From Rhizophagus irregularis (lineage: Eukaryota; Glomeromycota; Glomeromycetes; Glomerales; Glomeraceae): a DNA stretch of 64,000 nucleotides. Under the pieces are notes generated by a model, which saw nothing but the letters and a program-made list of their open reading frames with translations, was not told the origin of the DNA and did no database searches. The first letter of the stretch is position 1. Each line of letters begins with the position of its first letter. This document shows positions 3,855 through 28,794 of this stretch, one piece after another. The stretch is taken from contig NC_089432.1 in NCBI RefSeq assembly GCF_026210795.1, positions 4,650,001 to 4,714,000 of the forward strand. The letters run 5' to 3'. Position numbers and translations under genes: made by a program.

Positions 3855-5491
3855 TCATTTTCTTGAGCAATATTTGCTATCATGGATAATAATATCTCGT
3901 CCAACATTCTTCAAATCAATGTTAATAGCACCAGTGTTTTTTCTGAGACGAATATTGTCAGAATTACAGTTTATAATTAAACTGTTGTAACCAAGCTCCT
4001 TGAGTTTGTTATTCGTTTGAATAACTAGAGCAAGGAGCTCATTGTCAACTTCACGCGGTGCTTCTGTGCAAGAAAGAAAAATATCATGTAACTTTAACAA
4101 ATTAACGCGATAATTGTAAAACCGCAAATTTTTAATTACCTTTTCCATCATCATCATCATCTTCTTCTTCTTCTTCGCCATCATTATTATCATCTTTTTC
4201 TTCTTCGTCATCATCATCATCATCTTCTTCTTCTTCGCCATCATCATCATCATTTTTTTCTTCTTCGTCATCATTATCATCATCATCTTCTTCTTCGCCA
4301 TCATCATCATCATTTTCTTCTTCTTCGCTATCATTATCAATATCTTCTTCTTCGCCATCATCATCATCATTTTCTTCTTCTTCACTATCATTATCAACAT
4401 CTTCTTTTTTGCCATCATTATCATCATCATCTTCTTCTTCACTATCATTATCGTCACCTTCTTCTTCTTCGTCTACATTATCATCATCTTTTTCTTCTTC
4501 GTTATCATTATCATCAACTTTTTCTTCTTCGCTATCATCATCATCATTTTTTTCTTTTTCGCTATCATTATCAACATCTTGTTTTTCGCCATCATTATCG
4601 TTATCTTCATCTTCTTCTTCGCCATCATTATCATCATCTTTTTCTTCTTCGCCATCATTATCATCATCTTCACCATCTTCTTCTTCTTCGTCATCATTAT
4701 CATCTTCTTCTTCTTCTTCGCCATCATTATCATCATCTTCTTCTTCTTCTTCGCCATCATTATCATCATCTTCTTTTTCGCCATTATCATCATCTTCACC
4801 ATCTTCTTCTTCTTCGTCATCATTATCATCATCTTCTTCTTCTTCGCCATCATTATCATCATCATCTTCTTCTTCTTCGCCATCATTATCATCATCTTCT
4901 TTTTCGCCATTATTATCATCATCATCTTCTTCTTCTTCTTCGCCATCATTATCATCATCTTTTTCTTCTTCGCCATCATTATCATCATCTTCACCATCTT
5001 CTTCTTCTTCGTCATCATTATCATCATCATCTTCTTCTTCGCCATCATTATCATCATCATCATCTTCTTCTTCGCCATCATTATCATCATCTTCTTTTTC
5101 GCCATCATTATCATCATCTTCTTCTTCTTCTTCGCCATCATTATCATCATCTTCTTTTTCGCCATCATTATCATCATCATCTTCTTCTTCTTCGCCATCA
5201 TTATCATCATCTTTTTCTTCTTCGCCATCATTATCATTATCATCATCTTCTTCTTCTTCTTCGTCATCATCATCATCATCATCATCATCTTCTTCTTCAT
5301 TATCATAATTATCATTGTTAACATCATAATCATCATTATTATTAGTATCTTTTTCGTTAACTTTTTTAGTTTTATCATCATACGTAGATGTTACTATAAA
5401 AAAGAAATGTCAGGTATCTTTTTAAAATTACTAAACTGATTTTTTACATACATTTTTCTTCGTGTATACTATGTTCTTCAGTTGAATCCAT
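3855..5491 (-). CDS. Acidic Asp/Glu-repeat protein, three exons
   Basis: Model: exon 1 5491-5452 (starts MDSTEEHSIHEEK), exon 2 5393-4140, exon 3 4063-3855. Introns have GT-AG ends and the frame is continuous, giving about 501 residues. Exon 2 read in this frame is almost entirely Asp, Glu, Asn and Gly (GAT, GAA, AAT, GGC), in degenerate blocks of the type DDDNDGEEE. The frame has no stop across 1.25 kb but also no internal start codon, so a start-based ORF scan misses it and reports Met/Lys or Ser shadows in other frames. Exon 3 encodes an ordinary domain (EVDNELLALVIQTNNKLKEL, then NVGRDIIIHD). Near 3880 a one-base shift would continue into NIAQENDSSQERWERR down to about 3772, so the 3-prime end is either frameshifted or differently spliced. 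Polyacidic proteins often bind histones or other basic partners. That role is only a suggestion here, and the family is not recognised. Confidence 0.6.
4141..5310. repeat. Trinucleotide-based minisatellite in coding exon
   Basis: About 1.17 kb consists of plus-strand CAT/TAT/CTT/CGC triplets in roughly 24-33 base blocks, each with one GCC or GTC and runs of TTC and ATC. All length variation is in multiples of three, so all frames stay in register. This is expected if the Asp/Glu frame on the minus strand is, or recently was, under coding selection. Confidence 0.85.
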
Positions 5492-7665
5492 ATTGTTTGT
5501 AAAATAGTAGTATAAAGAAATCAAAAGATTTATAATTATATATTACAATAATATATGGAAAGAAAAATTTTGTACAAGTATGAAAAAAAATTTGTGTCTA
5601 TATATAAATTTTAAGATTGATGATTAATCATGATTCTAAAATTTTTTTTTAAGGGTTAAAATCAGGCTATTAATTAGATTGATTAATCAGTAAAATTTTT
5701 TTTTAAAACCGGGTGCATCAAGTAATCAGTAGGTATCAAATGATTATTTTAATTATTTTTATTTAAATTAATGCCAAAAAAAAAAATTGTTTTTGAATAC
5801 AAATAAATGAAATACAAATAAATGAAATATTGTTCAAACTTACTAAAGTATAAATAAAATATATATATATTTTTTTTTTTATTAAATTCTTCTATCATAG
5901 AAACGTCAAGAAGATATATATTTTATACTACACATTACCAATATTATAAAATTATACCGCTCAATAAATTTTAAGGTACATTATTAAATTTTAGTATACA
6001 TTTAATTAATTAAATAAATTTTGATTATCATCATTCATTTTTTTCATTTCGTTAATTTTTTCATTAATTTTTTCTTAAAAAAATTCTTGAGAATTTTCTT
6101 AAGAATTTAATGGAATATTTTCTTGATAACCTTATTAGAATCAGTATACCTTTGATATCAGATGAATCATCATCAAAATTCTTAATTTTTTTAGATTGAT
6201 TATTTTGGTTCGGGTTCATCAGGCCAAAAATGAAAATGTTCTAATGCTTCATAATCTTGTTATTTGATTTACTCTAAATCTTAATAAAACTCACTTGTTA
6301 ACCGTTCCACTTAATGTATCTGATTTTTACATTAATTTTAGGATTATTAAACCTAGATACAAATAAAAAATTAAAATTAAATAAAATAAATTACCACGAC
6401 ATTAAGCTGACGAATATTTTTATAGCCCTTAAATATATCAAAAAAAAAAAAAAAAAATTTAAAATGATTATACATTGTGTGTGCAAAACCAAATATTACA
6501 ACGAAATAAATGATATGTTTTTAACGAAATATATAACATAATAAATATATATATGTCTATTTTTAATCAATTAAAAAAAACTAATAATCAATAATTTAAT
6601 TTGATCATGAATTCTTTTTAAAAATAAAGTTAAATTTTATATTTACTTAATACTAGGCTTATCAGGCGAAGACATAAAACTTAAATTATTATAAATCATC
6701 GTTAATGTTAAATGATATGTAAAAGAAAAAAAAATTGTAAAACAAACCTACAACCAGTTCTGATACAACTGTATTATTAATTCAAAAATAATGTAACTAA
6801 AAAATTTCGAAATTTACTTCATGATTAAAATATTCCCAACTAATAAATATGAAACAAAAGGTAAAAATAAGAAATCGAAGAAAAGGGAGAAAAAGAAATT
6901 TCTCGCTTGTTGTCAACGAAAATCAATAACCGCTTCGGTTGCCAAAACATTCTTTATGAAGTAGTTTTCTAGCGTAATCATCTATGTTATAAAATAAGAA
7001 TCGTAAATATCATAAATCATTTTGAAGTTAAATAAAAATTAGAAATGAAAAAAAGAACTATAGTTATATTTAAATAATAAAGGTAATGCCTTGCATAATC
7101 TAGAATAATGTTCCAGAAAATACGCAACAACAACAGTATATTTGTTGAGTACACGGCCATCCAATTTTATAACTTGTTGATTTGTCAATTTTAATGAATG
7201 ACGTTATGGCGCAGTATTTGATAACGTGCTTGATTTTTCGAAATTACTCTCCCGAGAAGTTTTTAGAATTATTCTTGTCTCATTGCCGAGACTACATAAG
7301 CAAACAAAATTTTGGATTAATGCTATTTATTTCTTCTTATTATTATTTCATTCTCATTTTTGATTACATACCAATATAATATTTGTATATTTTGTTTCAT
7401 GATTTTGCTAATTTACGAGCCTTACAAAATACAATCTGCCGTGTAACTGTACAAATATGATTATGATTTGTAAAAATTACGGTAAACTAAATAAAAGCGT
7501 TACTTAAAAGCAATTTTTTTAAATAATATTTGTCATAATGTCATGACATAGAATAAAGAAACAAAAAATTAATATTTTTTTTTTACCGGGCTAAATCTTA
7601 CGGAGTTCAAATTTCTAACTAAATATATAAATAATCAACGCCTTTCCAACTATTATTTTTATGTG
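5492..7665. other. Intergenic, mostly featureless AT-rich DNA
   Basis: Apart from one coding-like stretch at 6085-6243, nothing supports a gene. Short frames at 6314-6541 and 7182-7379 lack start context, splice partners or recognisable motifs. Poly-A and TA microsatellite runs occur around 5860 and 6440. Confidence 0.5.
6085..6243 (-). other. Coding-like fragment
   Basis: The minus strand has an ATG opening MNPNQNNQSKKIKNFDDDSS with normal polar composition, followed by a possible donor (GGTATACTG). An overlapping frame upstream reads EALEHFHFWPDEPEPK before a stop. It may be the first exon or the remains of a gene; no downstream partner exons could be identified. Confidence 0.25.
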
Positions 7666-25639: not shown

Positions 25640-25885
25640 ATTTTATTGAATCTTTAACCTTGCTCATTATAATCCAAAAGATCCAGTTGTCCATGTGTGA
25701 AATTTTATTAGCCACTTTCTCATAATATTAAAAAGCTAACTTTTCATTCATTATTCATTTCGATAATATTCAATTGTGCTAATATGTGGTTCTTTTCTAA
25801 TGCATTAATGAATAAATTGAATGCTTATAATTTAAACGAACTATTTTGATTATTAATTAGTTAATAACTAATCTTAAAAATGTCG
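25640..25885 (-). pseudogene. Orphaned Sel1-repeat remnant
   Basis: On the minus strand a frame reads LINNQNSS and, after a stop, AFNLFINALEKNHILAQL. This is nearly identical to the first SLR of gene 6 (KAFNLFINALEKNHILVQ). Further on come degraded matches to NEKLAF, EKVANK and FTHGQLD, with stops and shifts. It lies just downstream of the chimeric kinase gene 4, in the position where that gene's own SLR array should be, and appears to be its discarded C-terminal half. Confidence 0.7.
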
Positions 25886-26038
25886 TGACATAAATTATTA
25901 ATTTCAATTATTTGACAATTTTCCTTAATAACAAAATTTATTATTTTAAAAATATAAAGATATAAACATACTATATAAAAAAGAAATATAAATTTTAAGT
26001 AAAACTACAAATATTCACAATACAAAAATAATATTCAT

Positions 26039-28794
26039 TTAAATATAGGGTACTTCATAACTCTTTAGACCTGAACTACATCTTTTCAATGCTGTCTCAT
26101 ACCGCTCACATAAATATTCATCAGGTTCAACTTCATCACTAGGTTTTAATTCCAGAGATTCTTCAGGTTGTGTGTATTTTTTTAATAAAATATGAATTAA
26201 TGTTTGTTGTTCCTCAGTAAAATCAATCCTTTCTATAAGTTCTTCAAATTCATCTCTAAATCGTTTAAATAATTCATCTTTTGCACAATTTGATGCTCCA
26301 ATATATGCCACAATATATGGTAATGTTTGTAATCCATCTTTTAATCCACGCGTCCTATATGGTTCATGGCGGATCTTACTAAGAAGACCATCATGTGCAA
26401 CCTAAATAAAGAGTATGTTAAAACAATAATAATATATTAAAAATATTATATTTATTACAAACCTTTAAACATGCTTTAGCATAAGAATCAATTTCTTTTG
26501 AACGTCGTAATTTTTCACCATTTAGTTTATTTAGTTTTACTAATTCACCTTTTTTATCGTTATCTGTTACAAAAAGATTACTGATCCAATCATTCTCCAG
26601 ATCTATTGCATATTTAAAATATGCAAGCGCGTACTTATATTCATCGGAGTTAACACGTTCCAACCCTTCGGTAAAATACAAAGTTATTTCTTTGTATTTA
26701 TCAAAGAATTCCACATATTCTTTAAAAGCTGGATCACATAGATATCCCGTATTCAATGAAAGAGGCTCATCCCAAGTTCCTGTCTAAATATATATACAAG
26801 GATATTCAAATTATAATGTAATTTTTTCAATGGAAAAAAAGTCCATTAGTTAACAGAATAAACTTACTAATTCACAACCAGATTCGTAATATTTATACAT
26901 TAGTGATCTAAACAAATCAATTTGTTCAAGCTTAAGACAAAATATTTCGAATCTATGAATTAATAAATATTCACATTAAAATTATCGAATCCGCTTATTT
27001 TATTACGTAATTGTTATCCCAAATCATGATATATTATGCTTACCTATTGTTGATTGTCGGATGAATGGATACTATATTTTTTTCTTGATGTTCAATAATC
27101 TCACACAGGTTTTTAAGATAATTACCAATATTACGATATGTAATAGAATTAGAATTATACGTATCTACTCGAGACGAATCACACAAAATAACGTCTTGAT
27201 TATAATCATCGTTATTATAATAATCATTATTATAATTATTAAAGTTTTCAATAGATCGTTCTTTTATTAATTTTCCCTCAATTTTTTTATTTAATAATTT
27301 AACGTTAATAATTAAATCTTTTATTTCATCAAATATTCTGTTAAAATCTTTGTTAGTTAAAGATTTTTCTTGCTTATCTGATACTGCTGTAGTATCAATT
27401 TCTTTTGTATTCGGTTTAGATAATTCTCCTTGTAATTTTGAATTATTGATACTTAAAGGGGCCTCATTAAATTCTTGATTGCTTGATAATTGAGGATTTT
27501 CTATTATTATATCTGTTTTTGTAATTATTGCACTTAGCCGATCAACTACTTGATAAATGGTTGGACGATTATCTGGTTCCCCATCCCAACATTCTAAGAA
27601 ATAAATGTAATTTAGGATTAATTAAAATAATATCTAAATTATAAAAATGTAGAATTTAAAATTTAAAATTTTACTCACTAGTATAAATTTTAACATATTC
27701 TTCAGGCGTATCAGGAACAACAGTTTCTCTAAGACCTTGCGAAATTTCCAAAGCTAAACCAACATCATATTCTTCATTCTCAACATAAAAAGGAGGTTGC
27801 CCACTGGATATTTCCCATAATAATACGCCTATACTGTAAACATCACTCTTTTCATTTAACGAGTACATTTGTGTTGTTTGGTTATTATTATTTCTTCGTT
27901 TGTTAAAGCTTTTTGGATCAACATAAGGAACCATTCCAAATGGTTTGGATTGAAAATTGGATGATTTCCCAATTCTTTTTGACAGCCCAAAATCTGCCAA
28001 TTTGATCATGTTTTGATGAACTAATATATTGTCAGAGTGCTATTAAAATGTATAATATATTAAATAAGTAAACGCAATATAGAATTTCAAACAATAATTA
28101 AATAATAATAAATAAATTACCAAGTCACGATGGATAATCCCCTCACTATGTAAACATGATACAGCATAAGCTAATTGGTACGCCATATTGAATTTGTCAT
28201 CCCAAGTGAGTTTATTAAAGTTTTTTTTCAAATAGCTTCGAAGACTACCACTGTCAGCGTATTCCATTACCAGCATATAGTTATTACCAATTTGATCTAA
28301 ATAAAAAAGAATTAAACATTAAACGTAATTTGTGAATAAAAATTAGACTATCATAATTATAATTATCAAGTAACTTTATTAATGCCTTGTAATACCTGAC
28401 TCAAATTTTGTAATTCCATGGCAACGAATAATATTATCAAGAAAATCAACTTTACGTTGATTTTTTAACTAAATAAATTCAAATATTAAAAATATTAAAA
28501 TAAATATAATTTAGATTATAAATAAAAAGAATATAATATATAAATTACCTCACAAACAATTTCCTTTATGGTGACATTGTTAAGATTAAAAAAAGATTTT
28601 AATACAAATTGTTTTTTTAAATTTTTCCAATTTGCACGATACACTTTTCCAAAAACTCCAGAACCAATTTCTTGAATATTACTAAATTGATTGTATTCGT
28701 ATAATTTTAAATGTTCTTTAACAATAGCTTCTTCAATCCAATTAATCCATTCATTTGTATTTTTGCTATCTCGCATTTCCTTATAATCAGACAT
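26039..28794 (-). CDS. Chimeric kinase: SLR array replaced by new C-terminus
   Basis: Eight exons: 28794-28549, 28468-28396, 28296-28121, 28039-27679, 27593-27044, 26952-26868, 26783-26463 and 26401-26039. All join in frame with GT-AG introns, giving 724 residues. The first four exons and the start of the fifth match the kinase-SLR paralogs: glycine loop [10 protein letters not shown], lysine in [44 protein letters not shown]. Homology continues through the linker to ENFNNYN and then stops. It is followed by an Asn/Asp/Tyr-rich bridge and about 270 residues of unknown, probably helical sequence: [47 protein letters not shown]. No Sel1 repeat is left in the protein; a degraded array sits just beyond its stop codon. 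The last three introns use good acceptors and GTAAGC, GTAAGT and GTTTGT donors. An alternative is that the last exons form a separate gene whose start was lost, but the perfect frame across three introns favours fusion. Confidence 0.8.

Follow-up and report, generated by a model that had tools for sequence, protein, structure and literature searches.

The window analysed here is a stretch of 64,000 nucleotides, corresponding to positions 4650001-4714000 of contig C4 in an assembly of Rhizophagus irregularis, an arbuscular mycorrhizal, root-symbiotic fungus; genome searches were performed on 32 contigs, for a total of 146.7 Mb. On the minus strand, between 28794 and 26039, a gene model was predicted, which consists of eight exons separated by seven GT..AG introns and contains a single open frame of 724 amino acids followed by a stop codon. 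Its components, and the sequences lying immediately beyond the stop codon, are reported in Table 1.

Table 1. Features of the chimeric kinase gene and of the sequences following it, in window coordinates.
Feature	Position	Strand	Basis
Predicted exons	28794-28549, 28468-28396, 28296-28121, 28039-27679, 27593-27044, 26952-26868, 26783-26463, 26401-26039	-	Spliced open frame from ATG to stop
Kinase half and linker	27236..28794	-	Four first exons and first part of 27593-27044; PK_Tyr_Ser-Thr match, linker rows
Asn/Tyr/Asp-rich bridge with 5' junction	27193..27240	-	Low-complexity sequence
Acquired tail, about 305 aa	26039..27192	-	Exon parts 27192-27044, 26952-26868, 26783-26463, 26401-26039; amino acid and DNA alignment to donor
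Copied donor 3' UTR, at whose end the copied block stops	25861..26038	-	BLAST block, window 27400-25861 = L009 5742-4110
3' junction zone	25834..25860	-	Between end of donor similarity and start of SLR similarity
Remnant of the original SLR array (array start)	25685..25833	-	Similarity to paralogs; stops in three frames, indels

The kinase half gives profile matches to PK_Tyr_Ser-Thr (PF07714, 4.8e-47) and to Pkinase (1.6e-42), and inspection of its translation by eye found the G-loop, Lys, HRD and DFG motifs all in place. It is constrained, with dN/dS values between 0.24 and 0.39 against nine paralogs. The 119-aa linker of the family was detected in at least 103 genome rows (150 of 526 candidates scored), with a best non-self identity of 72%; open frames of at least 300 aa surround 88 of the 103 listed rows, and in the paralogs inspected the linker is followed, in frame, by the SLRs. 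The match of kinase half and linker to neighbouring family members, claimed in the original prediction, is confirmed by the kinase profiles and the linker rows, and the break from the family sequence, predicted at about 27235, was placed at about 27240. Linker, bridge and tail are all contained within exon 5, in a continuous frame and with no splice between them. An in-frame C-terminal SLR array is absent from the window gene, whose frame ends in the tail, an SLR piece being located beyond the stop. Elsewhere in the genome, kinase-SLR loci with frameshift-broken, pseudogene-like SLR arrays were observed at C10:2961000-2963800, C29:2546500-2549500, C4:4478500-4481500 and C4:4171000-4174500. In L015 (C4:4574721-4578092), the nearest locus by linker among the listed rows, the SLR array is frameshifted near an A-run, by either decay or assembly error.

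A search for a donor gene elsewhere in the genome, proposed along with the original prediction, led to a USP25/28-type gene, of the deubiquitinase family, on contig C13: the tail, searched as 307 residues, matches one other genome place only, C13:3307789-3309027 (eight rows, falling in two places including the window; 10 of 10 candidates scored). Only the window copy is attached to a kinase, which, within this genome, speaks against an old kinase-plus-tail architecture, the case that the prediction had named against itself. The DNA alignment of window and donor covers the common coding exons and the three introns between them, and continues for about 175 bp past the stop, ending at 25861. Amino acid identity, exon by exon, is 88, 73, 61 and 53%, and the divergence of the tail from the donor amounts to 11% of coding sites and 19% of noncoding ones. 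The portion of the BLAST block above about 27240 pairs low-complexity sequence with the kinase linker, and was left out of the copied extent. The donor's own Asn/Tyr/Asp-rich bridge sits before its tail and, judging from the alignment, part of it was copied along with the tail; the low-complexity bridge noticed initially is present, but some or all of it derives from the donor, and it contains the junction. The three introns predicted downstream of the bridge were also recovered, while the unrelated residues, about 270 in the prediction, are about 305 when counted from 27192. A long low-complexity stretch of Asn/Tyr type, giving many BLAST matches to the donor bridge, was observed at 4000-5600 of the window.

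The open exons that precede the tail on C13 code for a USP domain (PF00443, 31.6 bits, cut-off 23.9). The best matches of the donor among solved structures are USP28 (9.6e-14), then USP25, and its USP alignment includes an inserted helical stretch as in these two proteins. In an ungapped alignment, a Gly occupies the column of the catalytic Cys; this stretch alone scores 2.4 bits, and the column assignment is likely. Read in this way, the alignment suggests that the donor is perhaps a pseudo-deubiquitinase. At the donor N-terminus, UBA_4 was found below cut-off (E 0.16), and a UIM-like stretch was noted by eye only. The exon with Gly for Cys, near 7700-7470 of the donor stretch (L009, C13:3303500-3313400), has only a self-match in the genome. 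Compared exon by exon, the donor is absent from 39 PF00443 rows of the genome. An active USP25/28 paralog was considered as donor and rejected, the Cys-region exon of the donor finding only itself; the 39 PF00443 rows elsewhere are taken together, whatever their USP type. The donor locus is still whole on C13, and the copied block begins downstream of its USP domain, which is absent from the chimera. For the tail itself, comparison with Pfam gave nothing above cut-off and comparison with PDB sequences a best E value of 0.47; single-sequence AlphaFold models of two tail exons (mean pLDDT 48.6 and 41.8) were helical, with no usable fold.

Beyond the 3' junction zone, similarity to the kinase-SLR family resumes. 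The remnant is 78.4-87.2% identical to the start of the SLR array in nine paralogs, and covers approximately the first repeat and half of the second. The region 25870-25330 matches 37 other genome places, with E values from 9.6e-25 to 7.4e-8, the three best of which are located 110-118 bp downstream of kinase linkers; in tblastn, the remnant gave 4e-4 against a small test database. With seven paralog stretches, the region 25900-25300 gave local alignment scores of 144-212; the anchor used to cut the L015 stretch was incorrect, and L016 and L019, without anchor, were excluded. In 200 shuffles against L012 the maximum was 112, versus an unshuffled score of 197. A decayed remnant had been predicted at 25640-25885, right after the stop codon: its existence is confirmed, with limits corrected to 25833-25685, and the sequence which does follow the stop, 26038-25861, is donor 3' UTR.

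The distance from linker end to SLR, 110-118 bp in three paralogs, is 1,401 bp in the window. The insertion of about 1.3 kb, as originally estimated, is upheld, with a size of about 1.38 kb which includes the donor 3' UTR; by these alignments, this gain was accompanied by the loss of about 110 bp of the kinase gene and of most of the SLR array. The remnant contains stops in all three frames, and its gap events average 5.1, compared to 2.6 among paralogs. Its substitutions are like those of the paralogs (mean identity 0.831 versus 0.838 over 36 paralog pairs), and its decay is visible only in indels and stops. The rest of the SLR array, beyond the remnant, is not recognisable. Since the remnant is situated beyond the block, the kinase-SLR gene is identified as the target and the USP-type gene as the source. 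Donor comparison and remnant together support the earlier proposal that a new C-terminus was supplied and the old one released from selection; by this comparison, the old SLR array was left without function.

Tail and donor were compared over 300 codons by NG86, obtaining a dS of 0.286, a dN of 0.086 and a dN/dS of 0.30 (bootstrap 0.19-0.47), which, in this two-sequence comparison, represents both branches together; for a copy neutral since duplication, a value of at least 0.5 is expected, if both branches are equally long. None of five coding indels shifts the frame, versus eight of twelve noncoding ones, in a control of 386 noncoding bp derived partly from intron 2, where adjacent gaps may be one event. 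By this rough control, zero frameshifts on a neutral copy branch have a P of about 9e-5. In simulations of a neutral copy, likewise rough, a frame free of stops has a P of about 0.005-0.03 for a divergence of 0.08-0.14 changes per site, and occurs in 11.5% of cases at 0.05. The tail has no stop and no frameshift, and all its splice sites are kept. Because of the dN/dS of 0.30 and of the lack of stops and frameshifts, selection probably keeps the tail, and purifying selection appears to act on both copies. The dS of the kinase half to the nine paralogs (0.341-0.577) is always above the tail value of 0.286, from which that of the nearest paralog, L013 (0.341, three of four blocks aligned), hardly differs. 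These values fit a fusion later than the split of the kinase from its nine compared relatives.

Of the 103 linker rows listed, 15 have frames shorter than 300 aa, including the window gene, and the other 14 were all inspected. SLR sequence, whole, shortened or decayed, was found in 11 of them (L015, L021, L027, L028, L030, L031, L033-L037), and was absent from the fetched stretch in two (L024 with L032; L029), which resemble broken kinase pieces. The remaining one, L022, carries a foreign tail. The rows inspected singly are those with short frames, and the count of replaced ends is thus a minimum. In L022, the tail that follows the linker row C4:3305183-3305476 matches C4:3291521-3291727, about 13.7 kb away (87% over 55 of 69 residues), and DNA similarity to the donor again extends past the stop. 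An SP-RING-type zinc finger (zf-Nse 27.7 bits, cut-off 27; zf-MIZ 30.3, below the cut-off of 33.5) is encoded near this donor sequence, and the tail frame follows about 400 bp downstream; the two presumably belong to one gene. The 3.5 kb retrieved at the L022 locus contain no trace of SLRs. The tail of this second kinase (C4:3305183-3305665, L022/L025; donor L026) has an internal repeat, with an early stop in the second copy. The existence of a second case suggests that the capture process is more than a single accident.

The window gene is very likely a chimera, formed by partial DNA duplication from a USP25/28-type donor into a kinase-SLR gene. At the level of DNA, comparison of the loci demonstrates the copied block, its donor, the common introns, the remnant and the direction of transfer. 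Because introns and 3' UTR are common to both loci, the block is a DNA copy and not a retrocopy. In the proposed mechanism, a double-strand break would have occurred in the linker of the kinase-SLR gene, and about 1.38 kb from the 3' end of the USP25/28-type gene would have been copied in as templated filler during repair, with the junction of the two sequences falling within low-complexity codons rich in AAT/TAT. With the three introns, the stop codon and the 3' UTR all retained in the copy, the kinase frame would run into the tail and stop there, and the SLR array, left behind the new stop, would have been thrown out of frame and largely lost. Such an insertion, templated during break repair, appears to be the best mechanism, as it would account for introns and UTR, for the small loss at the target and for the intact donor. 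A 12-nt sequence, AATAATTATAAT, occurs in the window, in two copies in the donor bridge and, among nine kinase linkers, at the corresponding position of L012 only; it might represent microhomology, a faint hint given the low complexity of the sequence.

Other explanations were weighed against the same evidence. The insert might be recent and its fused tail unused, either because transcripts end early or because the gene is a pseudogene in the making. Kinase-SLR genes do decay in this genome, as exemplified by the frameshifted SLR array of L015, the nearest by linker, and the substitutions in the remnant are about as many as those among paralogs; a neutral copy at a dS of 0.286, however, should hold stops and frameshifts, of which the tail has none, with its splice sites all kept, and an unused tail is considered unlikely. 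A transposon-borne piece, captured in a Pack-MULE-like manner, would be in line with the adjacency of R. irregularis high-copy genes to Mutator-like elements and with the capture by Pack-MULEs discussed in PMC8647823. Around the block, however, there is no convincing terminal inverted repeat (best 25 of 32 pairs): the only spanning pair among those listed, of 22 nt (25891-25912 / 27280-27301), is AT-only and 77% complementary, and has one arm within the copied UTR and the other within the kinase linker. Any target-site duplication would be masked by the low complexity of the junction. In addition, the donor of the second case is on the same contig, at 13.7 kb, and transposon capture is judged quite improbable.

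The 5' junction falls in a run common to the donor and to some kinase linkers, as unequal crossing-over or reciprocal translocation at this low-complexity run, instead of insertion, would produce. Such an exchange is largely refuted by the SLR remnant, which resumes beyond the block, and the donor is whole on C13; it is retained as a very remote alternative. Finally, the data derive from a single assembly, and an artefact, or a gene model wrongly joining two genes, might be suspected. The divergence between tail and donor indicates that the window does not contain a misjoined copy of the C13 locus, and the frame is unbroken across exon 5; an error of this type is deemed extremely improbable.

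Under partial duplication by templated insertion, the chimera is presumably translated. Human USP25 recognises substrates through its C-terminal domain. By analogy, the tail is probably a binding or docking module in the donor, and in the chimera it may direct the kinase to the proteins that interact with a USP-like, possibly inactive, protein, instead of to SLR partners. A broader hypothesis, possible but doubtful at present, is that the kinase linker is a recurrent landing place for 3' ends, complete with stop and 3' UTR, and that, by exchanging their docking ends, the fungus directs kinases to new targets; the tails of both cases derive from ubiquitin/SUMO-pathway-type genes. If this were true, USP25/28-like and SP-RING tails would wire kinases to ubiquitin and SUMO pathways.

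An expanded kinase repertoire, with 2,533 members, is described for R. irregularis in PMC10234402. Kinases are expanded and SLR genes numerous in this fungus, and the locus illustrates one route to new architectures in the kinase family, with parents, junction, UTR and discarded end all legible. Compared to the kinase-Sel1-repeat genes of R. irregularis, the window gene has the same kinase half, exon layout and linker, but carries a USP-family tail in place of the C-terminal SLR array. With USP25 and USP28, the relation is through the donor, which supplied the tail and whose USP domain has the inserted helical stretch; the donor differs from them in the Gly aligned to the catalytic Cys, and the chimera in having no USP domain. 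A limited literature search found no description of this kinase-USP-tail chimera, which is not proof of unpublished status. Chimeric genes formed by partial gene duplication or exon shuffling are reported, in the sections consulted, for Drosophila yakuba (PMC5460883) and, as fusion genes, for Oryza (PMC9199173). For the window gene, two parents were found, with a DNA-level copy including introns and one frame. This is a well-resolved chimeric gene, of a kind already known and apparently new as an example. As in the Drosophila yakuba and Oryza cases, to the extent that those sections describe them, DNA duplication has fused the 5' part of one gene with the 3' part of a second one; unlike them, within the same extent, the donor, the junctions, the copied UTR and the stranded remnant are here still readable.
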